Source: an uncultured Eubacteriales bacterium
GTDB taxonomy: Bacteria; Bacillota; Clostridia; Christensenellales; Aristaeellaceae
DNA length: 64,000 nucleotides
Direction of reading: 5' to 3'
Assembly (NCBI GenBank): GCA_900315675.1
Contig: OMZY01000001.1
Span: 124,001-188,000 of the forward strand
Positions 8,607 to 59,425 of this stretch are shown here, in pieces. Below the pieces are notes generated by a model that was not told the DNA's origin, searched no databases, and saw only the letters and a program-made list of their open reading frames with translations. The stretch's first letter is position 1. Each line of letters starts with the position of its first letter. Made by a program: the position numbers and the translations under genes.

Positions 8607-8640
8607 TTAAGGGTACCTCCTTGCATTTCGTTTACGTCCC

Positions 8641-8688
8641 TATTGTAAAGGCGAAAGCCGATCCATTCCATCGAATCGGCTTACAATA
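8641..8688. promoter_or_regulatory. Nested palindrome upstream of the bceAB-like pair
   Basis: Outer arms TATTGTAA (8641-8648) and TTACAATA (8681-8688) enclose inner arms GCCGAT (8657-8662) and ATCGGC (8675-8680). On the minus strand a TACAAT -10-like box lies in one outer arm, with no good -35. That pattern suits an activator-dependent promoter for the transporter genes, with the response regulator as the obvious candidate. The binding role is inferred. Confidence 0.5.
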
Positions 8689-8718
8689 CGAGGGGCAAAA
8701 CGAACAAAACTGTCACAT

Positions 8719-10376: not shown

Positions 10377-10466
10377 AGAAACTCCTTTAAACCAGGCGGG
10401 AACAGCGAATTTGGGGAACAACTGATTTTACCATATTATTCAATGATTGGACAGAAGGAACGGCAA

Positions 10467-11408: not shown

Positions 11409-11500
11409 TCCACTCCTTCCGGCTTGTGTATATTATAAACGAAAACGCCACAAACAATACCCTTTCGGGCATTGTTTGCGGCGTCGCTCAAAACGTACAT
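11405..11500 (-). CDS. Possible leader ORF of the methyltransferase (31 codons)
   Basis: On the minus strand an ATG 12 bases past the predicted transcription start opens a 31-codon frame. It runs through the leader hairpin and ends in a TGA that overlaps the methyltransferase ATG by the ATGA arrangement. There is no Shine-Dalgarno sequence, so translation is doubtful. It is listed because the exact overlap is typical of coupled leaders. Confidence 0.2.
   Translation of the reverse strand: MYVLSDAANNARKGIVCGVFVYNIHKPEGVE
11442..11483 (-). terminator. Leader hairpin / attenuator candidate before the methyltransferase gene
   Basis: On the minus strand a 17-bp stem closes a GAAA tetraloop and is followed by TTTTC. 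The two mismatched positions become G-U pairs only in the minus-strand RNA, so selection on that strand is likely. It lies between the promoter (11519-11546) and the coding start at 11408, that is inside the 5' leader. Confidence 0.65.
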
Positions 11501-11518
11501 CACACACAAACCACAGTC

Positions 11519-11546
11519 AATATACCATATTCAGAGACCCTGTCAA
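11519..11546 (-). promoter_or_regulatory. Sigma-A promoter for the methyltransferase
   Basis: Minus strand: -35 TTGACA (11541-11546), 16-base spacer, -10 TATATT (11519-11524). Predicted start of transcription near 11512, giving a leader of about 104 bases. Confidence 0.65.
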
Positions 11547-11663
11547 GTTTTTTGCTGACATTCTGAAAAATAAACAGGCATTAAACCAGAAGATGTTTGA
11601 CATTGACCGGTTTTCCGGTTACGATGAGGGCAATAATCTGAATATAACCGGAGGATGCAAGCG

Positions 11664-12245
11664 ATGAAGACTACACTGAACCGGTCCGCGGCGGCGGGCG
11701 TCCTGATCTGTATGGGCTGTATTGTGAACCTTAAGGTGGGCGGCGGTATTCCGGGAGCGGTGCTCTTCAGCGCCGGACTCTGGTTTGTGGTGAACTTTGA
11801 CGCGGAACTGTTTACCGGACGGGTGGCGCGGAATGATTATGATCCCCTGCAGAAGGTGATTATGCTGGTGATGAACGTGATCGGCGCAGCCGTGTGCGGC
11901 ATTCTGGCCTCGCTGTGTCTGCCTGAAATCCGGGAAGCCGCGCAGAAGATCGCAGCCGGATATCAGGATCCGCTGAAGGTGATCTGGCAGTCCATCATGT
12001 GCGGCATGTGCATGTATCTGGCAACCACCCAGCCGAAAAACAAGGATATCAGCCGGCTGCCTTTTGTGGTATACGGCGTGGCGCTGTTTATTCTTTCCTC
12101 CTATGCCCACTCCATTGCACTGGCAGGGTATGCGGCCATTGCCCAGGGAATTGCCTGGTGGGTGATTCCGCTGGCGGCTGCCGGCAACGCGGCGGGAAGC
12201 TATCTCATCAAGTTTCTGCTGATGCAGAAGAGCAACGAGAAATGA
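11664..12245 (+). CDS. Short formate/nitrite transporter (FNT)-like membrane protein
   Basis: About 193 residues with five or six hydrophobic helices. Family traits visible are an ELFTG motif after the second helix, a small-residue GMCMYLATTQ segment matching the FNT cysteine/asparagine region, and a central His in SSYAHSIALAG, the position of the conserved pore histidine. It is shorter than classical FocA/NirC (about 260-290), lacking the N-terminal helix region, so transport of formate or another small anion is inferred only from the fold. The start at 11664 is preferred because GGAGG sits nine bases before it; the ATG at 11655 abuts GGAGG directly. Confidence 0.7.
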   Translation: MKTTLNRSAAAGVLICMGCIVNLKVGGGIPGAVLFSAGLWFVVNFDAELFTGRVARNDYDPLQKVIMLVMNVIGAAVCGILASLCLPEIREAAQKIAAGYQDPLKVIWQSIMCGMCMYLATTQPKNKDISRLPFVVYGVALFILSSYAHSIALAGYAAIAQGIAWWVIPLAAAGNAAGSYLIKFLLMQKSNEK

Positions 12246-12309
12246 AACATGCGATACCGGTCTGCCATGGTATAAGCAAGGAAAGCTACGGGAAGAAGGT
12301 ATCATAAAG

Positions 12310-14073
12310 ATGGAAGAAGGCACGAAGCGGAGCAAGAAGGAAACCGCGGGATTGCTGAAAAGGTTCATTTCGTATTACAAACCGCATAAGAAACTTTTTG
12401 CCATGGACATGACGGCCGCGCTGCTGGTATCAGTGATTGGGGTTGTCTATCCCATGATTACCCGCACCATGCTGAACACACTGATTCCGGACCGGAATTA
12501 CCGGATGATCGTGATTTTCGGACTGACCCTGCTGAGCCTGTATTTCGTCAAAATGCTGCTGAATTACTTTATCCAGTATGAAGGTCATATGATGGGCGTA
12601 TACATGCAGGCACAGATGCGGACAGACATGTTTGCCCACCTGGAGACGCTGCCCTACAGTTTTTATGATACCCATGAAACCGGCAAAATCATGAGCCGGA
12701 TGACAAATGACCTGTTTGAAGTCAGCGAACTGGCACATCATGGCCCTGAGAACATCATCATCTCCGTGCTGAGCATAGTGATTTCATTCGTATATCTGAG
12801 CACTATCAATATCTGGCTGACGCTGATCGTTTTTGCCTGCGTTCCGTTCCTGATTGTGATTTCCTATAGCCTGCGGCAAAAGATGCGGAAGGCGTTCAGG
12901 GACACCCGTTCAGCTGTGGCAGAGATCAACGCCAGCATGGAAAGCTCCATATCCGGAATCCGGGTGACCAAGGCGTTTACCAATGCCGAAAAGGAAAAGG
13001 AAAAGTTTGAAATCGGGAACGGAAAGTTCCAGAAAGCCCGGCAGGCAGCCTACAGCGCGATGGGACGATTCCACAGCGGGAACACGTTTGTGACAGATGT
13101 GTTCAATGTGGTGGTGCTGATTGCCGGCGGACTGTTCCTGTATGACGGCCGGATCCAGTTCGGCGATTATTCAGCTTTCATTGTTTCCGTAAATATGTTT
13201 ATCGGCCCGGTGATGACGCTGATCAATTTCATGGAACAGTTTGAAAACGGAGTAACCGGTTTTGAGCGTTTCTGTGAGATTATGGACGCCAAACCGGAAA
13301 CGGACCGTCCGGACGCAAAGGACGCGGGAAAACTGGAAGGCCATATTGAGTTCAGGGACGTCAGCTATGCCTATGACGAAGACAAGAATGTGCTGCGGCA
13401 TGTGAACCTGAATATTGAAAAGGGAAAAACCTTCGCGCTGGTCGGCCCTTCCGGCGGCGGAAAAACCACGATCTGTCACCTGATCCCTCATTTCTATGAC
13501 GTAATGAGCGGCGAAATCCTGCTGGACGGGCAGGAAATCAACAGCCTGACGCTGGAAAGCGTGCGGCGGAATATCGGCATCGTGCAGCAGGATATTTACC
13601 TGTTCAACGACAGCATGAAGGAGAACATCCGCTACGGAAAACTGGACGCGACGGATGAGGAGATTATTCTGGCAGCGAAGCGCGCCAATATCCACGACTA
13701 TATCATGACCCTGCCCAACGGGTATGATACCAATATCGGCGAGCGGGGCGTACGCCTTTCCGGGGGCCAGAAACAGCGGCTGTCCATTGCCCGTGTATTC
13801 CTGAAGAATCCGCCGATCCTGATTCTGGATGAAGCCACCAGCGCGTTGGACAACACCACGGAAATCCTGATTCAGCAGGCGCTGGATGAACTGTGCAAGG
13901 GCAGGACCACGCTGGTGGTAGCCCACAGGCTGAGCACGATCAAGAACGCGGATGAGATTGCCGTAGTCAGCGACGGCCGGATTACGGAGCAGGGGACCCA
14001 CGAGGAACTGATGGCGAAACAGGGAACATACTTTGAATTGTACCAGCTACAATTCAAGGCAAATGCAGTGTGA
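12310..14073 (+). CDS. ABC exporter half-transporter (type IV fold, MsbA/BmrA-like)
   Basis: A fused membrane-plus-ATPase subunit of 587 residues that would work as a homodimer. The first 310 residues hold six helices including FDTHETG-type coupling sequence (FYDTHETGKIMSRMTND). The nucleotide-binding domain has Walker A GPSGGGKTT (about 380-388), signature LSGGQKQRLSIARVF, Walker B ILILDEATSALD and switch His VVAHRLSTI. Substrate is not predictable; lipids, drugs or peptides are usual. AAGAAGG precedes the start. The next gene begins about 70 bases later. Confidence 0.9.
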   Translation: MEEGTKRSKKETAGLLKRFISYYKPHKKLFAMDMTAALLVSVIGVVYPMITRTMLNTLIPDRNYRMIVIFGLTLLSLYFVKMLLNYFIQYEGHMMGVYMQAQMRTDMFAHLETLPYSFYDTHETGKIMSRMTNDLFEVSELAHHGPENIIISVLSIVISFVYLSTINIWLTLIVFACVPFLIVISYSLRQKMRKAFRDTRSAVAEINASMESSISGIRVTKAFTNAEKEKEKFEIGNGKFQKARQAAYSAMGRFHSGNTFVTDVFNVVVLIAGGLFLYDGRIQFGDYSAFIVSVNMFIGPVMTLINFMEQFENGVTGFERFCEIMDAKPETDRPDAKDAGKLEGHIEFRDVSYAYDEDKNVLRHVNLNIEKGKTFALVGPSGGGKTTICHLIPHFYDVMSGEILLDGQEINSLTLESVRRNIGIVQQDIYLFNDSMKENIRYGKLDATDEEIILAAKRANIHDYIMTLPNGYDTNIGERGVRLSGGQKQRLSIARVFLKNPPILILDEATSALDNTTEILIQQALDELCKGRTTLVVAHRLSTIKNADEIAVVSDGRITEQGTHEELMAKQGTYFELYQLQFKANAV

Positions 14074-14141
14074 GGCAATGGCTCACATCGCATTTGAACT
14101 GAAAACTTAAAAAATCATAATGTCTGCCACAGAAATAAGGG

Positions 14142-14771
14142 ATGGGTCATTCAGAAAGAACAGGAAATATGACTGCTATGTATGAAGTGCTGGAAGGAAA
14201 GAATATCAGGCTGAGGAAGGCAAGGGAAGATGATTATCAGTCCATGCTGAAGCATGTGTGGAGTGACGAGGCGGTTTACCGGTGGATGCTGTACCAGCCC
14301 ACGCTGACAGAAGAAGACGCCCGGGAAAGATGCCGCAGGAGCATGGAATACCAGAAAGACCATTATGCCTACTTTGTGACGCTGAAAGAGACGGATGAAG
14401 CCATCGGCCTGTGTGCCATTAAGGAAAATGAGCCCGGACACTTTGAAGAAAGCGGGATCTGCATCGGTACCGCGTTTCAGGGAAAAGGATACGGAAAGGA
14501 GACTGTCGCACTGCTGCTGGAACTGGCTTTCATGAAGCTGGGTGCGGAAGACTTCCGATACGGGTATTTCCATGACAATGAAAAGTCCCAAAAAGTGGCG
14601 GAATCCTTTGGCTTCCGTTATGAAAAGACCTATGAACTGACCCGCCCCTGGGATGGCAGCGTCAAAACGATTGATTCCTGTATCCTGACAAAGGAGGAAT
14701 ATGAAAACCAATTCAGAATTCAGAATTCAGAATTCATTACACCTGATGAAACAGTTTGTTCCTCCGATTGA
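14142..14771 (+). CDS. GNAT N-acetyltransferase (RimJ/RimL-like)
   Basis: Acetyl-CoA-dependent transferase. The N-terminal part LEGKNIRLRKAREDDYQSML is the family entry strand and GTAFQGKGYGKETVALLLELAF is the acetyl-CoA pyrophosphate loop (QGKGYG). Start choice is uncertain: the ATG at 14142 directly follows AAGGG, while the ATG at 14169 has AGGAA just before it and would still give the full domain. The last residues (QFRIQNSEFITPD) are encoded by three to four AATTCAG heptamers, so the C-terminal tail appears to come from repeat DNA. Substrate unknown. Confidence 0.78.
   Translation: MGHSERTGNMTAMYEVLEGKNIRLRKAREDDYQSMLKHVWSDEAVYRWMLYQPTLTEEDARERCRRSMEYQKDHYAYFVTLKETDEAIGLCAIKENEPGHFEESGICIGTAFQGKGYGKETVALLLELAFMKLGAEDFRYGYFHDNEKSQKVAESFGFRYEKTYELTRPWDGSVKTIDSCILTKEEYENQFRIQNSEFITPDETVCSSD
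14710..14737. repeat. AATTCAG heptamer array inside the end of the GNAT gene
   Basis: Four near-perfect consecutive 7-base units (AATTCAG, last one AATTCAT). The array is in frame with the GNAT gene and encodes part of its C-terminus. Confidence 0.8.
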
Positions 14772-14801
14772 GGTTCAGAAATGATAACAAAGGACTAGAG
14801 T

Positions 14802-15395
14802 ATGAACAAAAGAATCATCAATGAGCGGATCAGTTATATAGAAGCGACGGAAGAACCGCTGTCCGCGGATATCGGGATTATCCGGTGCAATGATACAGAA
14901 TGGCTTTATGATGTGGGCAATGATGAGAGAAGTCTGGCCGGATTGAAAGGTCAGTACAATGTGGTGCTGTCTCACTTCCATCAGGATCATACCGGAAGCC
15001 TGGACAAGGTACAGATCGGCGAACTATATGTATCCGGTGAAACTTTCCGGCATACCGGACGGGGAACCGTTGTGAATGATGAACTGACTGTCGGGGATCT
15101 GAGGATTTTCCAGATTCCTTCCAGTCATACAAAGGGATGCCTCGGGCTGGAAGTTGCAGGTGAATACGCTTTTGTCGGAGACGCTCTGTACAGTAAAGTG
15201 AAGGACGGATATTATGTTTATAATGCCCAGCTTCTGAAGGATGAAATTGAGGTGCTGAAAACACTGAAAGCGCCGAAACTGCTGGTGAGCCACTTCAAGG
15301 GATTTGTGCGTCCGAAGGATGAAGTGATTGAGGAACTGGAACAAATCTATAGTTTGCGTGAAAAAAACAATCCGGATATCAGAGTAGGCAGGTAA
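14802..15395 (+). CDS. MBL-fold metallo-hydrolase
   Basis: Metallo-beta-lactamase-fold hydrolase, 197 residues. The metal signature HFHQDHTG (about residues 58-65) is the HxHxDH motif. Later ligands are the His in PSSHTKGCLGL, the Asp in FVGDALYS and the His in LVSHFKGF. The family covers glyoxalase II, lactonase and RNase-like enzymes; small size and lack of extra domains fit a metabolite hydrolase, with substrate unknown. It lies 30 bases behind the GNAT gene and may be cotranscribed with it. Confidence 0.82.
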   Translation: MNKRIINERISYIEATEEPLSADIGIIRCNDTEWLYDVGNDERSLAGLKGQYNVVLSHFHQDHTGSLDKVQIGELYVSGETFRHTGRGTVVNDELTVGDLRIFQIPSSHTKGCLGLEVAGEYAFVGDALYSKVKDGYYVYNAQLLKDEIEVLKTLKAPKLLVSHFKGFVRPKDEVIEELEQIYSLREKNNPDIRVGR

Positions 15396-15475
15396 ACCGG
15401 AAAAAAGGAGCTGTTTCCGGTATAAGCCGCTTTGATCTGAGATGAAAAAAGATCAGGAAAGAGAAGGAAAAGAAC

Positions 15476-17290
15476 ATGAGAAAAAGAACCATCTCAAACA
15501 CCTTCCTACGCTGGCTGCTTCTGATTGTTATTCTGGCATTCGCCATGTCCATGGTCTTTTCCTGGACACTGCAGACACGCCTGTCCCAGCACAGTGCGGC
15601 CAACCTGCTGCGGCTGAACATCAAGGATGTGCGGCAGGATGTTATTGACGCTTCTGACGCGAATCTGCTGGCACTGACAAGAGCCATTGCCCATGAAATT
15701 GACAAAGGGGCACCGGTGAATGAAGTGGGACTTTCTTCGCTCATGAACTGGCATAATGTTGCGGAGATTAACATCATCAATCAGGATGGGATTATTACAG
15801 GAACCACACATGCCGCATTCCTGAACTATGATATGCGGAGCGGGGAACAGTCCGCTGAGTTTCTCTGCCTGCTGGACAGTACGGAAACGGAGCATGTCCA
15901 GAGTTATCAGCCAACAACCTATGATCCAGAGTTGCTGCGCAAATACGCAGCTGTCAAACTGAAACAGGGCGGCTTCGTACAGGTGGCCTATGACGCGGAA
16001 CGCTTTCAGCGGGATATTGACCATCTGGTGATCGGCGCGGCCCGCAACCGTCATGTGGGACAGGAAGGCGGCATTATCATTGCCGATGAAGACTGGAATA
16101 TTGTCAGTGACCGGAATCACAATGAGGGACAGAATCTGTTTGTGACCGGTATCTTGATCGACCGGGAAACCATGCCGGAACAGACCGTATTCCGGACCAA
16201 TGTGTAAGACGAGCCCTGCTCCTGTATGTATGTGTTTACGGAAGGATATTACCTGGTGGCGGTTTTGCCGGAAAATGAAATTCTGCTGCAGAGAAACACC
16301 TCTGTCAGGCTGACGGCGATCCTGGAAGTCCTGGTATTTGTGACGTTGTTCATTGTGATTTTCATGCTGGTCCGCAAACTGGTGGTCAACAATATCAACC
16401 GGGTCAACAGCTCCCTGTCCAAGATTACACAAGGGGATCTGGATGAGACGGTTGATGTGCGTTCCAACACGGAATTTTCCGCCCTGTCGGACGATATCAA
16501 TGCTACGGTCAGTACGCTGAAACAGTATATTTCCGCCGCCGCGGCCAGGATTGACGAAGAACTGGCGTTTGCCAAGAGTATTCAGCAGTCAGCGCTTCCG
16601 TCCGTATTTCCGCCTTATCCGGACAGAACAGACTTCAGTCTGTACGCAACAATGAACACCGCCAAAGAGGTGGGCGGAGATTTTTATGATTTCTATCTCC
16701 TTGACGAAAGGAAGCTGGCTTTCCTTGTGGCGGATGTTTCCGGTAAGGGTATACCGGCAGCCATGTTCATGATGACCGGCAAAACCGTAATACGGGATTA
16801 CGCCGAACGAGGGGATCACCCGACAGAAGTGTTCATCAATGCCAATAACAAGCTGTGCGAAGGCAATGAAGCAGAAATGTTCATTACAGCGTGGATGGGC
16901 TTCCTGGAAACAGACACAGGGCTGGTTCGCTTTGTGAACGCGGGCCATAACCCGCCGGTGTTGATCCGGAACGGGAAAGCATCCTTCATTGAACAGAAAG
17001 CGAACCTGACGCTGGCGGCCATGGAAGGAATCCGGTACCGGGAGCAGACGCTGCAGCTTCAGCCGGGCGATCTACTGTTCCTTTACACGGACGGGGTGAC
17101 CGAGGCAACGGATGCGGATAACCAGCTCTACGGAAATGACAGACTTATCCGGACGCTGACAGCATTCTTCAGCACGGGAATGGACGGATGCAGGGAAGCG
17201 TGTGAAGCGGTGAAGACGGATCTGGACGGTTTTGTGGGCGAAGCACCGCAGTTCGACGATATTACGATGCTGTGCCTGTACTACTCCTGA
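15476..17290 (+). pseudogene. SpoIIE/RsbU-type sensor serine phosphatase interrupted by in-frame TAA
   Basis: Two reading frames in the same phase form one gene split by a TAA at 16205-16207. The first part (243 codons) has an N-terminal membrane helix (about residues 11-32) and an extracellular sensor-like domain. Eighteen bases after the stop an ATG restarts in frame: the rest of the sensor, a second helix (ILEVLVFVTLFIVIFML), a HAMP linker (VVNNINRVNSSLSKITQGDLDE) and a PP2C-type SpoIIE phosphatase domain with EVGGDFYDFY, LVADVSGKGIPAA, NAGHNPP and LYTDGVTEA. Intact proteins of this design dephosphorylate anti-anti-sigma factors. No good ribosome-binding site precedes the internal ATG. A nonsense mutation is most likely; a truly split protein or a sequence error are alternatives. 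Confidence 0.8.
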
Positions 17291-40880: not shown

Positions 40881-40980
40881 GGCAGAGTAGCGTTTTCCGC
40901 GTGAAGTGTTCATGGACGGGGAGTTGCCATGGAACGAAACGGCCGGGTGCCGTGCGGTGGAGGATGCGCATCCCGCTGCT
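40881..40980 (+). promoter_or_regulatory. Tetrahydrofolate (THF) riboswitch aptamer
   Basis: The leader of folT carries the conserved blocks of the THF (folT) riboswitch in order: AGAGUAG, CGCGUGAAGUG, a GGGGAG segment with GUUGCC, ACGAAA, CGGUGGAGGAUGC and GCAUCCCGCUGC. The outer helix GCAG (40882-40885) closes with CUGC near 40976. This class binds reduced folates and controls folate transport and synthesis genes in Firmicutes. The aptamer is followed at once by an expression platform. The match of motif order and gene context makes this call strong. Confidence 0.9.
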
Positions 40981-41046: not shown

Positions 41047-41739
41047 ATGCAAAATAATATCAAACTGTTTGACAGACCTTTCAGTAAGGAATACTGGAAA
41101 CAGGCAGCTTCAGAGCTTAAAAATACCAAAGCGCTGATCTTCGCAGCACTGATGATCGCGCTTCGTATAGCTCTGAAATCCGTAAGCATTTACATTGCAG
41201 CCGACCTGAGGATCAGCATCGAATTCCTGGTCAACGCTCTGGGCGCTATGGTTTTCGGACCGGTAGTGGCGATTGCCGGCGCTGCTGTATCTGATACGCT
41301 GGGAGCGTTGCTGTTTCCATCAGGACCATACTTCTTCCCGTTTATCTTCACGGAAATTGCAGGGTCGATGGTGTTCGCATTATTCTTTTACAGGACAAGG
41401 ATTTCTGTGACAAAGGTTATTTTATCCCGATTCTGCACCAATTTCTTTGTCAACATTGTTCTCCAGACACCCATCATGGCCCTGTATTACCAGATGATGC
41501 TGGGAAAAACCTACAAGATTCTGAATCTTCCGAGAATGATCAAGAACCTGGTTCTTTTTCCGATCGAATCGTTACTTCTGGTGCTTTTCCTACGCGCATT
41601 GATTCCTTCGTTGAAAAGCCTTGGATATAAAGTCAGTGATATATCTAACCTGCACTTTACAAAAAAGAATATAATTACGTTGGTCATTCTGATGATTATC
41701 GGAGTTGCTGCTGTTGTGGCCTATGTGCTGACAAAATAA
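41047..41739 (+). CDS. folT: ECF transporter substrate-binding component for folate
   Basis: S-component of 230 residues with about six helices. Helices lie near 30-55, 60-95 (LRISIEFLVNALGAMVFGPVVA), 95-130, 140-160, 175-195 and 210-228. Motifs LVNALGAMVFGPVVAIAGAAVSDTLGALLFPSGPYF match FolT proteins and the first helix carries the EcfT-contacting small residues (ALMIALRIAL). With the THF riboswitch upstream, folate import is a firm inference. Its energising module is probably EcfA1A2T encoded at 56.9-59.4 kb. The next gene, nth, begins 11 bases later. Confidence 0.9.
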   Translation: MQNNIKLFDRPFSKEYWKQAASELKNTKALIFAALMIALRIALKSVSIYIAADLRISIEFLVNALGAMVFGPVVAIAGAAVSDTLGALLFPSGPYFFPFIFTEIAGSMVFALFFYRTRISVTKVILSRFCTNFFVNIVLQTPIMALYYQMMLGKTYKILNLPRMIKNLVLFPIESLLLVLFLRALIPSLKSLGYKVSDISNLHFTKKNIITLVILMIIGVAAVVAYVLTK

Positions 41740-47785: not shown

Positions 47786-47813
47786 AAAAATCCCTGCCTC
47801 CGGAGAGGCAGGG
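47786..47813 (-). terminator. Terminator of the flavoprotein reductase gene
   Basis: Minus strand: perfect 9-bp stem CCCTGCCTC / GAGGCAGGG with a 4-base loop, followed by ATTTTTC. Confidence 0.85.
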
Positions 47814-47834
47814 AAGAGTAACCGGGGCAAAGGA

Positions 47835-50309
47835 TTATTCAGCAGCGATGGTGTTCGCAGCGGTACGGCCGGAAACGAAGATCTCGACGATCGCGTTGCC
47901 GCCCAGACGGTTACCGCCGTGGATACCGCCGGTGACTTCACCCGCAGCGTAGAGGCCGGGGATGATGTTGCCTTCCGCATTCAGCACGTGGCGCTGGGTA
48001 TCAACAACGATACCGCCCATGGTGTGGTGAGTGGAAGGAGCCATCAGACGGACGAACACCAGGGTGTTGTCCAGGTCATAAGTCTCAGTCTTATATTTGC
48101 CGTCTTCGTCCTTTTCGACGTTGCCGATAGTACGGTCGCAGACCTTCTTGCCGACTTCGCCGAAGTCCGCAGAACCGGTGTTGGCCTTGTCCATAACAGC
48201 CTTGTCATAAGCTTTCACGGTTTCCAGCATGGTTGCAGCGTCAGCGGTTACGTTGGCAAATTCCGGCTTCGCCAGCACCTTGGCCAGTTCTTCCTCATTG
48301 CACTTGATCTTGTAGTAACGGCCGGCAAATTCGTCCATACGCAGCTGAGCGGTGGGCGGGCCGGGGATGTACTGATCCGCGTTGAAGAACTCAATGAAGA
48401 CGCCGGGGGTTCCGTTCAGTTCCATACCGTTACGGAATTCAGCCAGGGACAGCACGTCGCGCTCGGAACCTTCATCCACGAAGCGCTTGCCGGTGGAGGG
48501 GCTTACCCAGCAGGCATAGGTGCCGCTGCCGAAAGCCAGGTTTCCGTTGTCAACCCAGGAGATGGGCATCAGCTGGGTGAAGTTCATGCCGGTGACATCA
48601 GCGCCAACGGCCTGAGCCATAACGATACCGTCGCCCATCTGGGAGGAACGGTTGGTGGTCTTGGTGGACTTGGTCAGATACGCGGAATCCCAATAGGCAT
48701 TATCGCGCAGAACCATGTCGATGTTGGCGGCATAACCGCCGGTGGCCAGGATAACACCCTTGGAAGCATGAGCGATTACTTCGGTTCCGTCATAACGGAC
48801 AGCCTTGACACCGGTGACTTTGCCGTCTTCAACGATCAGTTCGTTGGCGGTGGTGCGGGTCAGGATGTTTTCTTCGCCGATCACAGCCAGCGGGCCTTTG
48901 AAGTAGGGCGTCCAGTTTCCGTCGGGGCTGGTGTATTCATTTTCACGATACCACAGAGCGCCGATCAGAGTGGGCTGGGTATGCTTGAATTCAGCACCCA
49001 TGTCTTCGAGCCACTCTTTCAGACCCTGGCCGTTCTCAATGAACTGTTTGACCAGATCCAGATCGCCGTAAATCCAGGAGGACTTGTCCGCAGTCTGACG
49101 CAGACCGCCGTAATAGGTCTGGAAGATGTGCAGGTTCAGGGTGGAGAACAGGGTCAGTTCACTCTCGGGAACACCTGCATCCAGCTTGGGCTGTGCCCAG
49201 TCCAGATAAGCCTGAATTTCCTTCTTCAGATCCTGCAGGACGGGGAGATATTCAGCGTGTACGCCATGCTTGGACAGCTCAGCGTCATCACCGGCAACAA
49301 ATTCGTTGGTCTTGTAGAACTCTTCATCGAAGGGTTCTTCACTCCAGTTCAGGATGATTTTCAGCACGTCGATGCAGCCCAGGTTAGACTTGATCTTGTC
49401 ATAGGTTTCGCCGGTGCGGCCATAGACGCCGGTGGTGGCATCGGGATCATTGGCATCCCAGACAAGGTAGGGCATTACGGACTGGAACTGACCGCCGGAA
49501 ACCAGCGTGTTACCGCCGACTTCAGCATTCTTTTCGAGCACCAGCACGGAGTTGCCGTTCTGGGTTGCCTGAGCCGCGGCAGCAATACCGGCACCGCCGG
49601 CGCCGACCACGACAACATCAACGGTCTTTTCGATCGTTTCGGAAGCGGGATGCTCAACCTTGTTGGATTTGAAAGCATCCAGGTTGGTGCAGCCGGCCTG
49701 TTCAGCAGCAGCGTTCACGATTTCACGGAGAGCGCGGCCGGAGAAGGTGGCACCGGAAACACCGTCCACACCGGTTCCGTTGGCCTGAAGCATATCGGGA
49801 ATCATGATCTCGAAAGCGTCAGTACCCACATGGGCGGTTTCCATGGAGGAGGTGATTTCAATTCCGGTCAGGGCAGTGTCAGAAAAGGTGACCTTTGCGG
49901 TAACATTGCCATTGTAGCCGTAAGCAGTAGCTTCGTACTCACCGGCGGTGAAAGCCAGTTCAGCAGGAGCTTCACCGGCGTCAGCCAGCGCCTTGCCGAC
50001 AGCTTCCAGAACAGCCTTCTGGGTGGCAGTGGCACCCGCGACAGTGTCCACACCGTCAACGGTACCGGCAGCCACGATGGCTTCGATCAGCTTTTCAACC
50101 GTATCAGCACGGTTAAAGCCGGCCAGAGAATAGGTTTCTCCGGAATCGTCCACATCGAGGCCGGTGATCTTACCGTCTTCAACGGTAACAGTCACCTTCA
50201 CCTCGCTGCCGAAGCCCTGGGCAGAACCGGTTTTCTCTTCAGCAGAAGCGAAAGCCGTCATACCGAGGATCAGGCAGAGGGACAGGAGAAGGGCAACAAG
50301 TTTCTTCAT
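47835..50309 (-). CDS. Secreted FAD-dependent reductase with two FMN-binding domains (fumarate/urocanate reductase type)
   Basis: About 824 residues. A signal peptide (MKKLVALLLSLCLILG to FASA) is followed by two FMN_bind domains: one ends in DTVAGATATQKAV (about residues 98-110) and the next in GVSGATFSGRAL (about 186-197). The last Thr/Ser of each GAT motif is the predicted covalent FMN site made by ApbE. The rest is the flavocytochrome-c-type FAD domain, with VVVVGAGGAGIAAA and LEKNAEVGGNT near 232-265, the GKRFVDEGSERD Arg region and THHTMGGIVVDTQ near the C-terminus. Reduction of an enoate such as fumarate or urocanate outside the membrane is likely, exact substrate open. I start at ATG 50309 (GAGG six bases upstream). 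Confidence 0.9.
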   Translation of the reverse strand: MKKLVALLLSLCLILGMTAFASAEEKTGSAQGFGSEVKVTVTVEDGKITGLDVDDSGETYSLAGFNRADTVEKLIEAIVAAGTVDGVDTVAGATATQKAVLEAVGKALADAGEAPAELAFTAGEYEATAYGYNGNVTAKVTFSDTALTGIEITSSMETAHVGTDAFEIMIPDMLQANGTGVDGVSGATFSGRALREIVNAAAEQAGCTNLDAFKSNKVEHPASETIEKTVDVVVVGAGGAGIAAAAQATQNGNSVLVLEKNAEVGGNTLVSGGQFQSVMPYLVWDANDPDATTGVYGRTGETYDKIKSNLGCIDVLKIILNWSEEPFDEEFYKTNEFVAGDDAELSKHGVHAEYLPVLQDLKKEIQAYLDWAQPKLDAGVPESELTLFSTLNLHIFQTYYGGLRQTADKSSWIYGDLDLVKQFIENGQGLKEWLEDMGAEFKHTQPTLIGALWYRENEYTSPDGNWTPYFKGPLAVIGEENILTRTTANELIVEDGKVTGVKAVRYDGTEVIAHASKGVILATGGYAANIDMVLRDNAYWDSAYLTKSTKTTNRSSQMGDGIVMAQAVGADVTGMNFTQLMPISWVDNGNLAFGSGTYACWVSPSTGKRFVDEGSERDVLSLAEFRNGMELNGTPGVFIEFFNADQYIPGPPTAQLRMDEFAGRYYKIKCNEEELAKVLAKPEFANVTADAATMLETVKAYDKAVMDKANTGSADFGEVGKKVCDRTIGNVEKDEDGKYKTETYDLDNTLVFVRLMAPSTHHTMGGIVVDTQRHVLNAEGNIIPGLYAAGEVTGGIHGGNRLGGNAIVEIFVSGRTAANTIAAE

Positions 50310-50370
50310 AGGGTTCCTCATCCTTTCCTATGGAATATGAATTTTGACAGATAAAATCATCTGTATCTTT

Positions 50371-50400
50371 ATTGTACGCTTTCAAAACCGGTTACGTCAA
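50371..50400 (-). promoter_or_regulatory. Promoter of the flavoprotein reductase gene
   Basis: Minus strand -35 TTGACG (50395-50400), 18-base spacer, -10 TACAAT (50371-50376). The leader to the start codon is about 55 bases. The gene-free stretch from 50310 to 50686 also holds the forward promoter at 50624; between them only AT-rich DNA with a weak 65-codon frame is seen. Confidence 0.6.
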
Positions 50401-50623
50401 CTTAAAAAAACCGGATCCGATGCGGTTACATACAAGTCCGTGACAGGCAAAAAATGATGAATAATAAGGGGTTGGAGAATCTTTCCATATCTGAAAAAGA
50501 GAATCGTTACGGTTTTGCAGGAGAGGTATATAAAAAATATACCTTCCAGAAAATGGTCAAAAAACCACGGGAGAGGGAACAAAAAAAGCAGATATATACC
50601 AACGCAAAGAAAGCAGAGAACGG

Positions 50624-50652
50624 TTGCCTGAAAGGATCAAAAAAGATATAAT
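50624..50652 (+). promoter_or_regulatory. Promoter of the Gx transporter-ApbE-NusG_II operon
   Basis: TTGCCT (50624-50629), 17-base spacer, TATAAT (50647-50652), 34 bases before the GTG start. Confidence 0.7.
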
Positions 50653-50686
50653 ACATTGTTACTGAAGACACAGAGGAGGAAAACCT

Positions 50687-51367
50687 GTGAGACCGCAGAC
50701 TCAGAGAATAGCCAGATTCGGCCTGCTTACAGCGCTTGCGCTCGTGCTCGGGCTGATCGACCGGGCTGTACCGGTTTCGGCTCTTCTCGGCGGAATGCTC
50801 CCCGGAATCAAACTCGGACTGGCCAATACGGTTCTGCTGTATGCCGTTTATCTGATGGACCGGAAGAGCTGCGTCGCCCTGATGCTTACCAAGGTTGTTC
50901 TTTCAGGTTTTCTGTTCGGATCACTTTCGGCCATTCTGTTCAGCTTATCAGGCGGCGTGCTGAGCCTGCTTGTTATGCTGCTGATCAGGAAACGGCCTGA
51001 AAGCGGTGCCGTCTGTACAATTCTGATGACAGCGGCTGCGGAAATCTACCTGCTGAGCAAGAATCCCCATCCGCAGGGAGAAATGCTGATCACCGTTATC
51101 CTGATCGGACTGGCATTTGCCGCGGGCATTGTGATCCTGGCCCTGACACACCAGGGTACCGTGACTCCGGTGATGGGCACCTCGCTGGCAGGCGCGGTTA
51201 CCCATAACATCGGACAGGTGCTGATGGCCTGCCTTGTGATGAACAATACGCGGCTGCTAATCAGCTATCTGCCCGCGCTGATCGGTATCGGAGCGGCAGT
51301 CGGCTGCCTGACGGGGATTGTTACAGACCGGGTGCTAAAAGTGCTGAAGCTCAAACCCAATGTATAA
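50687..51367 (+). CDS. Gx transporter family membrane protein (EetB-like)
   Basis: 226 residues, six to seven hydrophobic helices. The start IARFGLLTALALVLGLIDRAVPVSALLGGMLPGIKLGLANTVLLYAVYLM and the LGLAN motif match the Gx/heptaprenyl-diphosphate-synthase-component-I family (Hpre_diP_synt_I), an S-component-like fold. It lies before ApbE and a NusG_II protein, as in flavin-based extracellular electron transfer loci, where EetB belongs to this family. Electron or quinone-related transfer is the inferred role; the old synthase name is probably wrong. The start is GTG with GGAGG seven bases before it. Confidence 0.8.
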   Translation: MRPQTQRIARFGLLTALALVLGLIDRAVPVSALLGGMLPGIKLGLANTVLLYAVYLMDRKSCVALMLTKVVLSGFLFGSLSAILFSLSGGVLSLLVMLLIRKRPESGAVCTILMTAAAEIYLLSKNPHPQGEMLITVILIGLAFAAGIVILALTHQGTVTPVMGTSLAGAVTHNIGQVLMACLVMNNTRLLISYLPALIGIGAAVGCLTGIVTDRVLKVLKLKPNV

Positions 51368-51383
51368 ATGAGGAGATATTTTC

Positions 51384-52376
51384 TTGAAAAGGACAATGAA
51401 GATCGGCGCGCTGCTGGCAGCAGTTCTGCTGATGAACGGAGGCTGTGCGGCAGAAAAGATTCCGCCGAAACTTTCCGAGGTCGGTTTTTACCTGGATACA
51501 GTCATTACCATGACAGCCTATGTGGAAGACAAACAGGTGCTGAAGGACGCAATGAATGAGTGCGGCCGGTATGAGCAAATCCTTTCACGAACGGTGGAAG
51601 GAAGCGATGTCTGGCGGATCAACCATGCGAAAGGCGAACCTGTGGAGGTGTCGGAGGATACGATGAACATTCTGCGCTGTGCGCAGGAAATCGGCGATCA
51701 GTCCGGCGGCGCATTTGATGTGACCATTGCTCCGGTATCCACCATGTGGAACTTTACCAGGGAGCCTTACACACTGCCGGACAGTGACGCCATTGCACAG
51801 GCAGCCAAACTGGTGGATTATACACGGATGAAGCTGGAAGGAAATACCGTGACGCTTCCTGAAGGCATGATGATTGACCTGGGCGGTATAGCCAAGGGAT
51901 ATATTGCAGACCGTGTAAAAGCATACCTGCAGGAACGCGGCGTACAATACGCGATTCTCTCCTTCGGGGGCAACATTGTGGCCATCGGCAGCCGGAAACC
52001 GGACGGTTCACCCTGGCGGGTCGGGATTCAGGATATTGATAAACCGACCGGGGAACATATGCTGATTTCCGTCAATAAAGGCGGATCCACGGTAACCAGC
52101 GGAACCTATGAGCGGGGATTTGATCTCGACGGCGTAAGGTATCACCACCTGCTGTCACCGGATACCGGCTGGCCTGTGCAGAATGAACTGGCTTCCGTAA
52201 CCATCTTCTCGGAAAGTTCAATGGAAGGAGACGCCCTGTCCACAACGGCGTTTATCCTGGGGACGGACAAGGGACTTGAACTGATTGAAAGTCTGAAAGG
52301 CGTTGAAGCTGTATTTATCGCGAAGGACCGGAAGGTGACGTATTCCTCCGGTGCAGAAGAATACATGGTACAGTGA
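51384..52376 (+). CDS. apbE: FAD:protein FMN transferase (ApbE), lipoprotein
   Basis: Attaches FMN from FAD to Thr/Ser in FMN-binding domains. The N-terminus MKIGALLAAVLLMNGGCAAEK carries a lipobox-like NGGC, so it should be membrane-anchored outside. Conserved parts are FYLDTVITMTAY, GAFDVTIAPVSTMWNF, MMIDLGGIAKGYIADRV (metal and FAD region), SFGGNIVAIGSR and WPVQNELASVTIF. The frame opens with TTG at 51384 (AGGAG eight bases upstream); an ATG at 51396 gives a normal signal peptide with weaker ribosome binding. Its target is plausibly the secreted reductase encoded at 47.8-50.3 kb. The Gx gene is 16 bases upstream. Confidence 0.93.
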   Translation: MKRTMKIGALLAAVLLMNGGCAAEKIPPKLSEVGFYLDTVITMTAYVEDKQVLKDAMNECGRYEQILSRTVEGSDVWRINHAKGEPVEVSEDTMNILRCAQEIGDQSGGAFDVTIAPVSTMWNFTREPYTLPDSDAIAQAAKLVDYTRMKLEGNTVTLPEGMMIDLGGIAKGYIADRVKAYLQERGVQYAILSFGGNIVAIGSRKPDGSPWRVGIQDIDKPTGEHMLISVNKGGSTVTSGTYERGFDLDGVRYHHLLSPDTGWPVQNELASVTIFSESSMEGDALSTTAFILGTDKGLELIESLKGVEAVFIAKDRKVTYSSGAEEYMVQ

Positions 52377-52389
52377 TCGGAGAGTATAG

Positions 52390-52953
52390 ATGAAGAAAAA
52401 GTATTGGATCGCAGGAACGGCGGCAGTTATTGTTCTGATTGCAGCAATTGTTTTGCTGCTGATGCAGAACAATAACAATAATTCAGAATCCAGAATTCAG
52501 AATTCAGAATTAAATGCTGAGGCAATATATACAGCAGTTCCTGACGTAGAAAAGAAGAAGGAAGAAACTGTGAAGGAAACGGCTGAAGCTGAGAAGAAGG
52601 AACAGCCTTTCCTGGTGCAGATTACAGAGAATGATCCCGCAACGGCTTATGTGCTTGTGAGAATGCCGAATCCTGTCGGCCTGCTGCCGCTTCCGACAGA
52701 AGGAGAGTACAGCAGGACCATCCGGATACAGATGGCAGACGGTTCAGAAGCGGTGAACGTGCTTCATCTGACAACAGACGGGTTCCGGATGGAGGACGCC
52801 AACTGTGAAGGACATGACTGCGTAAAGCAGGGAGAAGTGACCCTGGCAAACCGGGAGGACCGGATTCTTTCCAACATGATTATCTGCCTGCCGCACCAGC
52901 TGTCCGCTGAGCTGATTACGAGGGAAGAAGCCGAACAGATGCTCAGCCGCTGA
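52390..52953 (+). CDS. NusG domain II-containing protein (EetA-like) with heptamer-encoded insert
   Basis: 187 residues. One N-terminal helix (WIAGTAAVIVLIAAIVLLLM) anchors it. The outside domain (about 75-187) is NusG_II type, with RTIRIQMADGSEAVNVLHL, DANCEGHDCVKQGEV and ILSNMIICLPHQLSAEL, including the conserved Cys pair and ICLPH signature. Codons 31-41 (NSESRIQNSEL) are encoded by four AATTCAG-type heptamers, so the linker contains repeat DNA in frame. It is last in the Gx-ApbE-NusG_II operon. Such proteins accompany flavinylated reductase or Eet systems; their exact role is unknown. Confidence 0.85.
   Translation: MKKKYWIAGTAAVIVLIAAIVLLLMQNNNNNSESRIQNSELNAEAIYTAVPDVEKKKEETVKETAEAEKKEQPFLVQITENDPATAYVLVRMPNPVGLLPLPTEGEYSRTIRIQMADGSEAVNVLHLTTDGFRMEDANCEGHDCVKQGEVTLANREDRILSNMIICLPHQLSAELITREEAEQMLSR
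52480..52513. repeat. AATTCAG heptamer array inside the NusG_II gene
   Basis: Four units in a row (AATTCAG, AATCCAG, AATTCAG, AATTCAG) followed by AATTAAA, in frame within coding sequence. Confidence 0.85.
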
Positions 52954-56150: not shown

Positions 56151-56938
56151 GTTACATCTTCCTCGTGCCAACGTAAGGATTCAGGGTCGGTAAAGGCCTG
56201 TGGGGGATATCTGACTTCAGTCAGTTCCAGTCCGTGTGCCGGAGCAGTCATGCCGAGCGCAAGCCGGTCCAGCGTTTCAAAAGCCCTGGTGAAGGAATCC
56301 GGCTGAAATTTACCAAGACCGATTTCCACAACGGTACCCGCAATGATCCGAACCATATTATACAGAAAAGCGTCTCCGCTGACGGTCAGGATCCACTCCT
56401 GTCCCCGCACTTCAAGACCGGCGGACCGCAGGGTTCGTACGGTGGTTTTTGCTGTACCGCCTGACGCCTGAAAGGCCGCAAAATCATGACGGCCTGTCAG
56501 AGTAGCGAGAGCCTGCCGAACGGGGGCTTCCGCCAGCGGCACAGGGACGTGCCAATGTGTATTGCGCCGGAGCGCGCTGGCATGGCGGGCATTCCAGATC
56601 CGATAGGTATAGGTTTTACCGGCAGTGAGAAAACGGGCGTGGAAACCGGCCGGAACTTCACGGCCGTCCAGCACCCGGATATCAGGCGGAAGCATTGTGT
56701 TAAGCACAAAAGGATATTTATCCGGAGGGATTGTAGATTCTGTATCAAAATGGACTTTCTGATCCAGCGCATGAACACCGGCATCCGTGCGGGAAGCTCC
56801 GGTAACCGTAACAGGCTGCCCGCAGGCAGAGGAAAGCGCCTCCTCAAGCACCTGCTGGACAGCCAGACCGTTAATCTGCCGTTGCCAGCCGGCATAGGCG
56901 GTTCCGTCATATTCCACTGTCAGCAGGATCCGTTTCAA
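56138..56938 (-). CDS. truA: tRNA pseudouridine(38-40) synthase
   Basis: 266 residues. The catalytic Asp is in SRTDAGVHAL (about residue 51). Other family parts are YDGTAYAGWQRQ, GKTYTYRIWNA, HDFAAFQASGG and FLYNMVRIIAGTVVEIG. The start is TTG, overlapping the ecfT stop (TTTTGA), with GGAGGG about nine bases upstream. The order ecfA1-ecfA2-ecfT-truA is normal for Firmicutes, but the ribosomal protein genes often beside it are absent. Confidence 0.96.
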   Translation of the reverse strand: MKRILLTVEYDGTAYAGWQRQINGLAVQQVLEEALSSACGQPVTVTGASRTDAGVHALDQKVHFDTESTIPPDKYPFVLNTMLPPDIRVLDGREVPAGFHARFLTAGKTYTYRIWNARHASALRRNTHWHVPVPLAEAPVRQALATLTGRHDFAAFQASGGTAKTTVRTLRSAGLEVRGQEWILTVSGDAFLYNMVRIIAGTVVEIGLGKFQPDSFTRAFETLDRLALGMTAPAHGLELTEVRYPPQAFTDPESLRWHEEDVTCSD

Positions 56939-57738
56939 AAGATGATTCCCTCCAGTATGATCAGCGCCAGCAGCGCAGCCACGGCGCCGCAGGCTATCCA
57001 GTCGTTCCGGGTGATCTTCAGAACACGCAGGCGGGTGCGGCCTTCACCGCCATGATAACAACGGCTTTCCATGGCCATAGCCAGATCTCCCGCACGGCGG
57101 AAGGCACTGACAAACAGCGGCACCAGCAGGGGGACCATGGCTTTCGCACGGGAAAGCAGGTTTCCGCTCTCAAAATCTGCGCCGCGCGCCATCTGGGCTT
57201 TCATGATTTTGTCCGTTTCCTCCAGCAGGGTGGGAATGAAACGCAGAGCAATGGTCATCATCATGGCCAGTTCATGGGCCGGGAAATGAATAACCTTCAG
57301 GGGGGACAGCAGGATTTCAATTCCATCGGAAAGCGCCACGGGGGAAGTGGTGAGGGTCAGCAGGCTGGTGCCGATGACCAGGAAGATCAGCCGCAGGGAA
57401 TAGAAAGCAGCCTGCATAAAGCCTTCCTGTGTAATCCGGATGCCCCAGAATTCCACCCAGACAGTTTCGCCCGTTGTGAAGAACAGGTTCAGCAGGAAGG
57501 TCAGGATAATAATCAGACGCAGCGGTTTTAATCCGCGCAGAAGCATGCGGAAGGGAACATTTGCCAGACGGGATGTCAGCCAGACAAAGCCCAGAATGAC
57601 AGCATAGCCGAGGAAAGTCCTGGCCATGAAAACCGTAACGATAAAAACAATGGTCAGGATCAGCTTCACACGGGGATCCAGACGATGAACCTTACTGTCC
57701 ACAGGATAGTACTGACCCATGGTGATGTTGTTCAGCAC
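56935..57738 (-). CDS. ecfT: ECF transporter transmembrane component
   Basis: 267 residues. Energy-coupling membrane subunit that joins the two ATPases with interchangeable S-components. Helices near 25-55, 60-80, 100-130 and 240-262; the coupling helix region holds two small motifs of the A-R-G type (KAQMARGADFE and SAFRRAGDLAMAMESRCY), as known for EcfT. The start is GTG with GGAGGG, overlapping the ecfA2 stop by seven bases. The pairing partner FolT is encoded 15 kb upstream under a THF riboswitch. Confidence 0.95.
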   Translation of the reverse strand: MLNNITMGQYYPVDSKVHRLDPRVKLILTIVFIVTVFMARTFLGYAVILGFVWLTSRLANVPFRMLLRGLKPLRLIIILTFLLNLFFTTGETVWVEFWGIRITQEGFMQAAFYSLRLIFLVIGTSLLTLTTSPVALSDGIEILLSPLKVIHFPAHELAMMMTIALRFIPTLLEETDKIMKAQMARGADFESGNLLSRAKAMVPLLVPLFVSAFRRAGDLAMAMESRCYHGGEGRTRLRVLKITRNDWIACGAVAALLALIILEGIIF

Positions 57739-58595
57739 TGCGATCCCTCCTTCCAGAGACGGAGAAGCTGTTCCTTCAGCTGCTCCGGACGGAACAGATC
57801 TGCGGGCAGATCATAACCTTTCGCGCGAAGCCGGGCACACAGGCGGGCGGCTTCCGGCACATCCAGGCCGATGGAAGTCATCATCTCTTCCTGCATGAAG
57901 ATTTCCCGGGGCGTTCCGTCAGCTACGATTTTTCCGTCGCTCATGACAATCAGACGGGTAGCCAGCCGGGCCATATCATCCATACTGTGGGAAACCATCA
58001 GAATGGTGACGTTTTCCCGGGCGTGAAGTTCTTCCAGCATACTCAGGATCCGGTCACGACCGCGGGGATCCAGCCCGGCTGTCGGCTCGTCCAGGATCAG
58101 AACTGAGGGACGCATCGCCAGCACACCGGCTATGGCGACACGACGCATCTGGCCGCCGGACAGTTCGAAGGGACTGCGTTCAGCGTACTTCTGATAATCC
58201 AGATGCACGCAGTCCATGGCGTAACGGACCCGCTCGTCAATTTCCGCCGCGGACAGTCCCTGGTTTTTCGGTCCGAAGGCGATGTCCTTTGCAACAGTTT
58301 CCTCAAAAAGCTGATATTCAGGGTATTGAAACACAAGGCCGATCCGCTGACGGAGCGCACGGCGGTTGACATGTTCTCCGTTCAGATCTTCCCCGTCCAC
58401 AAGAACCTGCCCTGAGGTTGGCTTCAGCAAGCCGTTCAGATGCTGCACAAGGGTGGATTTTCCGCTGCCGGTGTGACCGATGATACCGACAAATTCTCCG
58501 TTTTCAATCCGGAAGGAAACATCATTCAGCGCAACAGTACGCAGGGCACTGCCTTCAGAATAGCAATGGGTCAGGTGGCTGACTTCAATGGGCAC
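57732..58595 (-). CDS. ecfA2: ECF transporter ATPase A2
   Basis: 287 residues. Walker A GHTGSGKST (about residues 39-47), Q-loop FQYPEYQLFEETV, signature LSGGQMRRVAIAGVL, Walker B VLILDEPTAGLD, switch His MVSHSMDD, and the C-terminal helical extension typical of EcfA. Residue layout with YPEYQLF marks the A2 type. The start is GTG with GGAGG, overlapping ecfA1 by 25 bases. Confidence 0.95.
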   Translation of the reverse strand: MPIEVSHLTHCYSEGSALRTVALNDVSFRIENGEFVGIIGHTGSGKSTLVQHLNGLLKPTSGQVLVDGEDLNGEHVNRRALRQRIGLVFQYPEYQLFEETVAKDIAFGPKNQGLSAAEIDERVRYAMDCVHLDYQKYAERSPFELSGGQMRRVAIAGVLAMRPSVLILDEPTAGLDPRGRDRILSMLEELHARENVTILMVSHSMDDMARLATRLIVMSDGKIVADGTPREIFMQEEMMTSIGLDVPEAARLCARLRAKGYDLPADLFRPEQLKEQLLRLWKEGSQC

Positions 58596-59425
58596 AGTCT
58601 TTCCACCTCCTCAACAAACTCATCAACGGTCAGGATTCCGGGCTTCAGCGGCATTCCCTCTGCACGGAGTTCACCGGCCAGGGCAGTCATATGCGGAACA
58701 TCCAGATGCATTTCGCGCATCTCATCCACACGGTCAAATACTTCGGCAGGGGTACCTTCAAGACGGATCTGACCATCGGTTACAACAAGCACACGGTCGG
58801 CCTGTGCGGCTTCCTCCATGAAATGGGTGATCCACACCACGGTGATGCCTTTCTGGCGGTTCAGGGTACGAATCGTATCCAGAACTTCCTTACGGCCGGA
58901 AGGATCAAGCATGGCGGTCGCTTCATCCGCAATAATGACGGAGGGTTCCATGGCCAGGATGCCGGCTATGGCAACCCGCTGCTTCTGGCCGCCGGAAAGC
59001 AGATGCGGCGCTTTATCCGCATATTTGCTCATGCGAACGGCAGAGAGAGCGCTCTCAATACGGGGAAGCATTTCTTCCGTGGGAACGCCGAGGTTTTCCA
59101 GACCGAAGGCGACATCCTCCTTGACGACGGTAGCCACAATCTGGTTGTCCGGATTCTGGAAGATCATACCTGCACGCTGCCGGATTTCCCAGACGTATTT
59201 CTCCTCGCGCGTGTCATAACCGCAGACCAGGACATTCCCTTCGGTGGGAACATAAAGGGCGTTGAGGAGCTTGGCCATTGTGGATTTACCGGAGCCGTTA
59301 TGGCCCAGAACAGCAACGAATTCTCCGGGCTGTATGACCGCAGAGACGCCGGAAAGAGCAGGCGTCGCCTGCTCTTCATAGGAATAGGATACATCGTTCA
59401 GCTGAACGCGGGTATCGGAATGCAT
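58571..59425 (-). CDS. ecfA1: ECF transporter ATPase A1
   Basis: 284 residues. Walker A GHNGSGKST (about 37-45), Q-loop FQNPDNQIVATVV (A1 signature), ABC signature LSGGQKQRVAIAGIL, Walker B VIIADEATAMLD, switch His WITHFMEEA. The start is ATG with AAAGGA upstream. It heads the five-gene overlapping operon. No other S-component gene adjoins, which is normal for a group II ECF system. Confidence 0.95.
   Translation of the reverse strand: MHSDTRVQLNDVSYSYEEQATPALSGVSAVIQPGEFVAVLGHNGSGKSTMAKLLNALYVPTEGNVLVCGYDTREEKYVWEIRQRAGMIFQNPDNQIVATVVKEDVAFGLENLGVPTEEMLPRIESALSAVRMSKYADKAPHLLSGGQKQRVAIAGILAMEPSVIIADEATAMLDPSGRKEVLDTIRTLNRQKGITVVWITHFMEEAAQADRVLVVTDGQIRLEGTPAEVFDRVDEMREMHLDVPHMTALAGELRAEGMPLKPGILTVDEFVEEVERLCPLKSAT

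Follow-up and report, generated by a model that had tools for sequence, protein, structure and literature searches.

Both UrdA of Shewanella and FrdA of Listeria are described as extracytosolic reductases that combine FMN_bind and FAD_binding_2 domains (PMC8238504, PMC10882135), binding flavin mononucleotide (FMN) and flavin adenine dinucleotide (FAD), and passages of the 2021 survey describe fumarate-reductase-like proteins with FMN_bind, as well as multi-FMN proteins, as frequent (PMC8238504). In Listeria, FAD is exported for flavinylation by EetB together with FmnA and the energy-coupling factor (ECF) ATPases, and EetB (family PF07456) is the FAD-exporting S subunit (ECF-S); passages of the same study report no extracellular electron transfer (EET) phenotype for an eetA deletion, and find eetB together with apbE, Rnf and EET systems being its most frequent partners (PMC9973259). 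Here we describe a reductase with both domain types (RED) and the divergent, probable flavinylation operon next to it in an uncultured Eubacteriales bacterium (GCA_900315675.1, contig OMZY01000001.1). The window, that is the whole stretch of DNA analysed, is 64,000 nucleotides long, and locus positions follow its numbering.

Like UrdA and FrdA, RED is predicted to be extracytosolic and joins FMN_bind to FAD_binding_2, with the catalytic arginine and the carboxylate-binding histidine and arginine as in UrdA and Fcc3; what sets it apart is a second FMN_bind domain, an insert that exceeds the corresponding part of UrdA by about 105 residues, and other residues on the substrate side. The operon brings together EetB-family, ApbE and NusG_II genes, as does the flavin-based EET (FLEET) locus of Listeria (ndh2, pplA, fmnA/B, eetA/B, dmk), provided that NusG_II corresponds to EetA, as we assume (we found PF07009 named in none of the cited passages). 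Unlike in that system, the genome has no UbiA match, ndh2, pplA and dmk are not at the RED locus, and RNF is present. A third comparison is with the RNF-associated ApbE/EetB modules of Clostridia, in which ApbE lies with Gx and/or NusG_II beside RNF, as in six relatives; here the module adjoins a reductase instead, and RNF is on another contig. In passages of the 2021 survey we found no description of the insert and active site of the RED subfamily (PMC8238504).

We consider it likely that the operon is a flavinylation operon and that RED, fed by RNF, is a respiratory reductase of a 2-enoate. On this reading the EetB-like Gx protein, with an ECF T/A/A' module, would export FAD, and ApbE would move FMN onto the threonine of the FMN_bind motifs of RED and of the cell's other FMN_bind proteins. 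In this gut-type anaerobe the RNF complex would take electrons from ferredoxin or NADH and pass them to FMN carriers outside the cytosol, from which they would reach the FMN groups of RED (two here, one to three in relatives) and then its FAD. A hydride from FADH- and a proton from Arg621 would reduce the C=C bond of a 2-enoate whose carboxylate His765 and Arg805 would hold, and RED probably lets the cell discharge electrons onto an unsaturated acid outside the membrane. Flavinylation, RNF as donor, the electron order and the substrate class are what we infer from the domains, motifs, copy numbers, gene order and conserved residues observed. RED is ordinary in kind, a predicted flavinylated respiratory reductase adjoining the cell's probable flavinylation hub, with an unusual active site. 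Two points are new: RED and its orthologues form a defined subfamily with a long insert, and Gx at this locus is reassigned from electron carrier to predicted FAD exporter.

The reductase and its active site

The first-pass annotation, made from the sequence alone, had placed a secreted FAD reductase that bears a pair of FMN_bind domains beside a divergent Gx-ApbE-NusG_II operon (50687-52953, plus strand). Open reading frames (ORFs) and Pfam agree, and the genes are as follows:

47835-50321, minus strand: RED, FAD reductase with two FMN_bind domains, 828 amino acids (ORF, Pfam and alignment)
49077-49475, minus strand: conserved insert of RED, residues 283-415 (alignment)
50687-51367, plus strand: Gx, EetB-family ECF-S subunit (PF07456), 226 amino acids, predicted FAD export (Pfam)
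51384-52376, plus strand: ApbE FMN transferase, 330 amino acids, probable lipoprotein (NGGC, an atypical lipobox, by eye) (Pfam)
52390-52953, plus strand: NusG_II protein, 187 amino acids, with a hydrophobic N-terminal segment (ORF and Pfam)
56935-59425, minus strand: ECF-T (CbiQ) and two ECF ATPases (family scan)

Pfam finds two FMN_bind stretches (protein E 9.5e-24) and FAD_binding_2 (1.8e-54) in RED, in the order signal sequence, FMN_bind 1 (about residues 36-112), FMN_bind 2 and FAD_binding_2, the last with the insert at 283-415. The signal sequence (KK, a hydrophobic stretch, ASA) was seen by eye and in an alignment of 21 rows. These rows are the window's RED and its counterparts from 20 named loci (the 21st, L103, is partial and was left out), which are 66-88% identical to it. 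A lipobox-like stretch occurs in 8 of the 21 rows and is absent from the window's RED.

The FMN attachment motifs are DTVAGAT at 92-98 and DGVSGAT at 186-192. Of the two motif forms given in passages of PMC10339131, Dxx[S/T]GA[S/T]-like and DxxxGAT, the first RED motif (AGAT) fits only the latter. With these motifs and the pair of PF04205 and PF00890 domains, RED is predicted to lie outside the cytosol, to be flavinylated by ApbE and to belong to the fumarate/urocanate reductase superfamily; its flavinylation partners adjoin it, as first annotated. Both FMN_bind domains bear a motif in all 21 rows, two of which have three motifs. Among the 53 loci whose reductase is longer than 700 amino acids, 46 have at least two motifs, L069, L072, L098 and L101 have three, and seven have only one that is clean. 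The number thus ranges from one to three, so that a second FMN is usual and not required; this weakens the earlier idea that the two domains form a short electron wire. Two paralogues in the same genome (on C34 and C48) also carry two FMN_bind stretches. Besides RED, two double-FMN_bind reductases of this genome (L047:7929-10268 and L051:9575-11695) have another active site, with no equivalent of R621, H765 or R805 in the alignment.

The best PDB relatives of RED are UrdA (8.1e-49; 2.1e-56 with a profile) and Fcc3. Residue roles in UrdA were taken from passages of PMC10882135; by alignment, Arg411, His520 and Arg560 are kept as R621, H765 and R805, and Tyr373, Glu177, Phe245 and Asp388 are changed to M585, Q278, I453 and approximately G600. 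As aligned, RED has none of the residues specific to UrdA (Asp388, Glu177, Phe245, Tyr373). The same three RED residues match Fcc3 Arg402 and the residues that we take to be its His504 and Arg544. The equivalents of Fcc3/FrdA His365 and of Thr377 (presumably so numbered in Fcc3)/Glu378 are not kept, being M585 and F597/G598. All nine positions (R621, H765, R805, M585, Q278, I453, F597, G598, G600) are invariant in the 21 rows, and as a positive control the paralogues C53_593 and C14_626 of the same genome retain the fumarate signature in the same alignment. As aligned, RED keeps the catalytic arginine and the carboxylate-binding histidine and arginine of fumarate and urocanate reductases without the residues specific to either, and its substrate is probably neither fumarate nor urocanate.

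The insert is about 105 residues longer than the corresponding part of UrdA, which is about 29 residues long. Of 53 orthologue loci, 45 had both ends recognised by the pattern, and in these the spacing around the insert measures 144-147 residues. It has no Pfam match, and residues 283-420 gave no PDB match below E 0.1. In the same stretch paralogue C17_678 of this genome has 131 residues, C14_626 has 73 and the others have 30-36 (MAFFT; the alignment there is unsure), and the length of C17_678 may count against the uniqueness of the RED insert.

Flavin supply and electron source

Pfam assigns Gx to PF07456 (3.6e-27) and its partners to ApbE (1.6e-87) and NusG_II (4.9e-10), with no redox domain in Gx or NusG_II. 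Because Gx belongs to the EetB family of FAD exporters, the operon would supply and attach flavin. The whole genome has one PF07456 gene, one ApbE gene above the cut-off and 16 FMN_bind matches, and the operon is therefore probably a general flavinylation supply that serves all FMN_bind proteins of the cell. An ApbE dedicated to RED was rejected on the same single copy, and a second ApbE candidate on C19 was discarded as partial and below the cut-off (23.4-23.5 bits against 25.6). The first annotation suggested looking for Eet genes elsewhere in the genome; in genome-wide searches for PF07456 and ApbE, the Gx-ApbE module was the sole one found. ECF-T/A/A' genes lie 4 kb past NusG_II; an exporter of the EetB type depends on an energising module of this sort, and the one here is possibly the cell's general ECF module. 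With PF07456 beside apbE and these genes present, Gx is a predicted EetB-type exporter, and a "Gx transporter" or "heptaprenyl diphosphate synthase component I" annotated beside ApbE is better read as an FAD exporter than as an electron carrier. Among the genome's other FMN_bind proteins, one has an RR signal and joins a C_GCAxxG_C_C redox protein to FMN_bind (L044:5811-6743, on C49), and in another the FMN_bind domain lies within an ABC permease of the FtsX type (L049:9357-10814, on C18).

The genome has a single RnfD-family gene, within a full RNF operon on another contig than RED, in the order RnfC, RnfD fused to FMN_bind, RnfE, RnfA, RnfB, then a 1134-residue protein, ResB and CcsA. UbiA, presumably the type to which the Dmk prenyltransferase belongs, had no match in the genome (0/1; control 14/14; genome rated 95.66% complete), consistent with the earlier remark that demethylmenaquinone genes are missing; ndh2 and pplA were found in none of the six genes scanned at the locus, and no genome-wide search for them was made. 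The absence of a detectable UbiA argues against a quinone-based Eet chain and, together with the presence of RNF, makes RNF the likelier electron source. RNF is available, not proven, as donor to RED.

The 1134-residue protein (L046:8560-11964, in the region 6359-17020, on C53) is a fusion of FMN_bind with an NrfA-type cytochrome c552. It has six [S/T]GAT motifs, three FMN_bind stretches that pass in Pfam, and four CxxCH motifs plus a CxxCK; it is possibly an RNF-driven extracytosolic nitrite reductase. A similar RNF-fusion-ResB-CcsA order occurs in L113, L114 and L115, the 742-residue version in L115 having fewer motifs. Passages of the 2021 survey remark on a multi-flavinylated, multi-heme RnfG in Christensenellales (PMC8238504), from which one may guess that the present genome belongs to that order. 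RnfD frames are 519-561 residues long (the fused type) in own-genus genomes with RED and 313 and 351 residues in G026 and G149, of the same genus, which lack RED; fused-length frames occur also in genera without RED.

Distribution and gene order in relatives

At E 1e-100, with two candidates scored per genome, a search of 341 genomes of the class found RED in its own genome and in none of the 340 others (one of the same family), so weaker or missed relatives are possible. The family set comprised 150 genomes including this one; six candidates were scored per genome, and a match had to reach 50% identity across 350 residues or more, with fragments included. RED orthologues were found in 35 of the 150. 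ApbE lies within about 3 kb of RED in 10 of these 35 (5 of 5 in the own genus and 5 of 6 in genus g17), Gx alone is beside RED in G008, and the remaining 24 are unlinked. So far the RED subfamily has been found in a single family of Clostridia, many of whose genomes are from ruminant guts; the named relatives are metagenome-assembled genomes titled Clostridia, Clostridiales or Lachnospiraceae, with a goat or sheep gut compartment given in 10 of the 21 titles.

A tree was made from 47 of 56 loci, leaving out L087 and L094 (duplicates of the L053 and L054 records), L081 and L083 (hand-chosen), L079 and L084 (motif not found by pattern) and L082, L085 and L103 (reductase shorter than 700 amino acids). 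A locus was called linked when a gene of the ApbE/NusG_II or Gx clusters starts at most 6.5 kb from the start of RED, which applies to 23 of the 47. The first annotation would have been refuted by homologues never neighbouring ApbE, Gx or NusG_II genes, and this is not what the loci show. In L089 and L092 other genes lie between RED and the linked gene, and contig ends may have truncated some of the unlinked loci. The linkage state changes 7 times on the tree (at least 5 of them forced by starred branches), against a shuffled mean of about 16. In the own-genus clade mostly Gx-ApbE-NusG_II faces RED; in the g17 clade and L101 the NusG_II gene is nearest RED, followed by Gx; and in L076 NusG_II-Gx lies downstream of RED in the same direction. 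The module stays while the neighbour on the far side of RED changes.

ApbE abuts RNF genes in all six regions examined for this (L107-L112, from G060, G134, G094, G115, G001 and G105), which were picked for having ApbE and RnfD near each other on one contig and hence give no frequency. A NusG_II gene was found in every region but L111, and Gx in L107, L110 and L111; four of the six genomes carry RED (not G115 and G001).

Alternative explanations and other features of the locus

Several observations weigh against RED as an RNF-fed 2-enoate reductase beside its flavin supply. That 33 of the 35 genomes with RED have RNF (missing in G103 and G141) would favour it as donor, but RNF occurs in 133 of the 150 family genomes, and being so general its presence says little about RED; quinones may alternatively be acquired from outside. 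Seven of the 53 orthologues (L060, L062, L071, L076, L077, L079, L081) have just one clean FMN motif, and the position matching Asp388/Glu378 adjoins a two-residue alignment gap, so that the mapping to G600 holds to within two residues. Linkage counts against it as well: ApbE is unlinked to RED in 25 of the 35 family genomes, and the neighbours proposed at first annotation for RED homologues, found at 23 tree loci, are absent within 6.5 kb at the other 24. These unlinked loci, together with G060 of genus g17, where the module is beside RNF and RED on another contig, would suit an incidental neighbourhood in which module and RED move freely and adjacency has no functional meaning. We regard this as improbable, since linkage recurs in separate clades with differing gene orders and the module is retained while the far-side neighbour of RED varies.

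The lyase of the fumarase/aspartase type beside the RED orthologue in L074 would suit fumarate, as would the retained Arg/His/Arg and the closeness to UrdA and Fcc3. That RED might be a standard fumarate (or urocanate) reductase whose substrate residues have drifted is nevertheless a little less probable again: the mapped substrate-specific positions differ yet are invariant across the 21 rows (M585, Q278, I453, F597, G598, G600), and the genome holds two other reductases with an intact fumarate signature. Least probable, and for Gx rejected, is the first-pass proposal of an Eet-like unit in which Gx and NusG_II are membrane electron carriers feeding the FMNs of RED: their genes do adjoin RED, and a study of Lactiplantibacillus (L. 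plantarum) proposes a flavin-dependent electron route through EetA, based on an eetA/B double deletion for which neither gene alone gave back the wild type (PMC9888254), but PF07456 is an ECF-S FAD exporter and the Listeria eetA deletion had no EET phenotype (PMC9973259), neither protein has a redox domain by Pfam, no quinone prenyltransferase gene was found in the genome, and in relatives ApbE with NusG_II or Gx is not tied to RED.

With RED taken as an RNF-fed 2-enoate reductase, we put forward, tentatively and with more doubt than confidence, that a lineage-restricted subfamily respires a plant- or host-derived 2-enoate without quinone synthesis, RNF acting as a ferredoxin:extracellular-acceptor reductase and the insert either covering the substrate as a lid of a new kind or docking the flavin carriers. 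Respiratory-type reductases of gut anaerobes consume hydrogen equivalents otherwise available for methane or propionate, and the RED subfamily, for which a substrate class is predicted, is a defined target among them.

The neighbours of RED were rejected as a clue to the substrate, the 20 genes scanned being of mixed families. A nucleoside hydrolase and a PnrA-like (Bmp) ABC transporter lie beside RED in L102, the same clusters recur in L099 (by cluster, not by domain scan), and two BPD_transp_2 permeases of the same clusters as in L102 lie in L079. Other neighbours include ZnuA, ROK, pyruvate kinase and a glycosyl hydrolase, three having no family, and a gene adjoining the orthologue in L067 (11495-12484) pairs a C_GCAxxG_C_C redox domain with FMN_bind.

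Three regulatory candidates at the locus are consensus matches only:

50371-50400, minus strand: promoter-like site of RED, TTGACG-18-TACAAT, 10/12 sigma-70-like
50624-50652, plus strand: promoter-like site of the Gx operon, TTGCCT-17-TATAAT, 10/12 sigma-70-like
47791-47814, minus strand: terminator-like hairpin after RED, 10 pairs, then T-rich

The counts of such sites are not far from chance: the region has 8 and 7 sigma-70-like sites, and shuffled sequence gave 4.7 (sd 2.4) and 6.9 (sd 2.6). Of 19 aligned intergenic regions, among which two pairs come from the same record, 16 show a TTGAC block upstream of RED. A riboswitch between the divergent RED and Gx genes was rejected, no match there reaching the gathering score. 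Elsewhere in the window a tetrahydrofolate (THF) riboswitch (79.6 bits, 40881-40980) precedes a gene at 41047-41739 with a weak, below cut-off match to an ECF S-component, which probably encodes a folate transporter.

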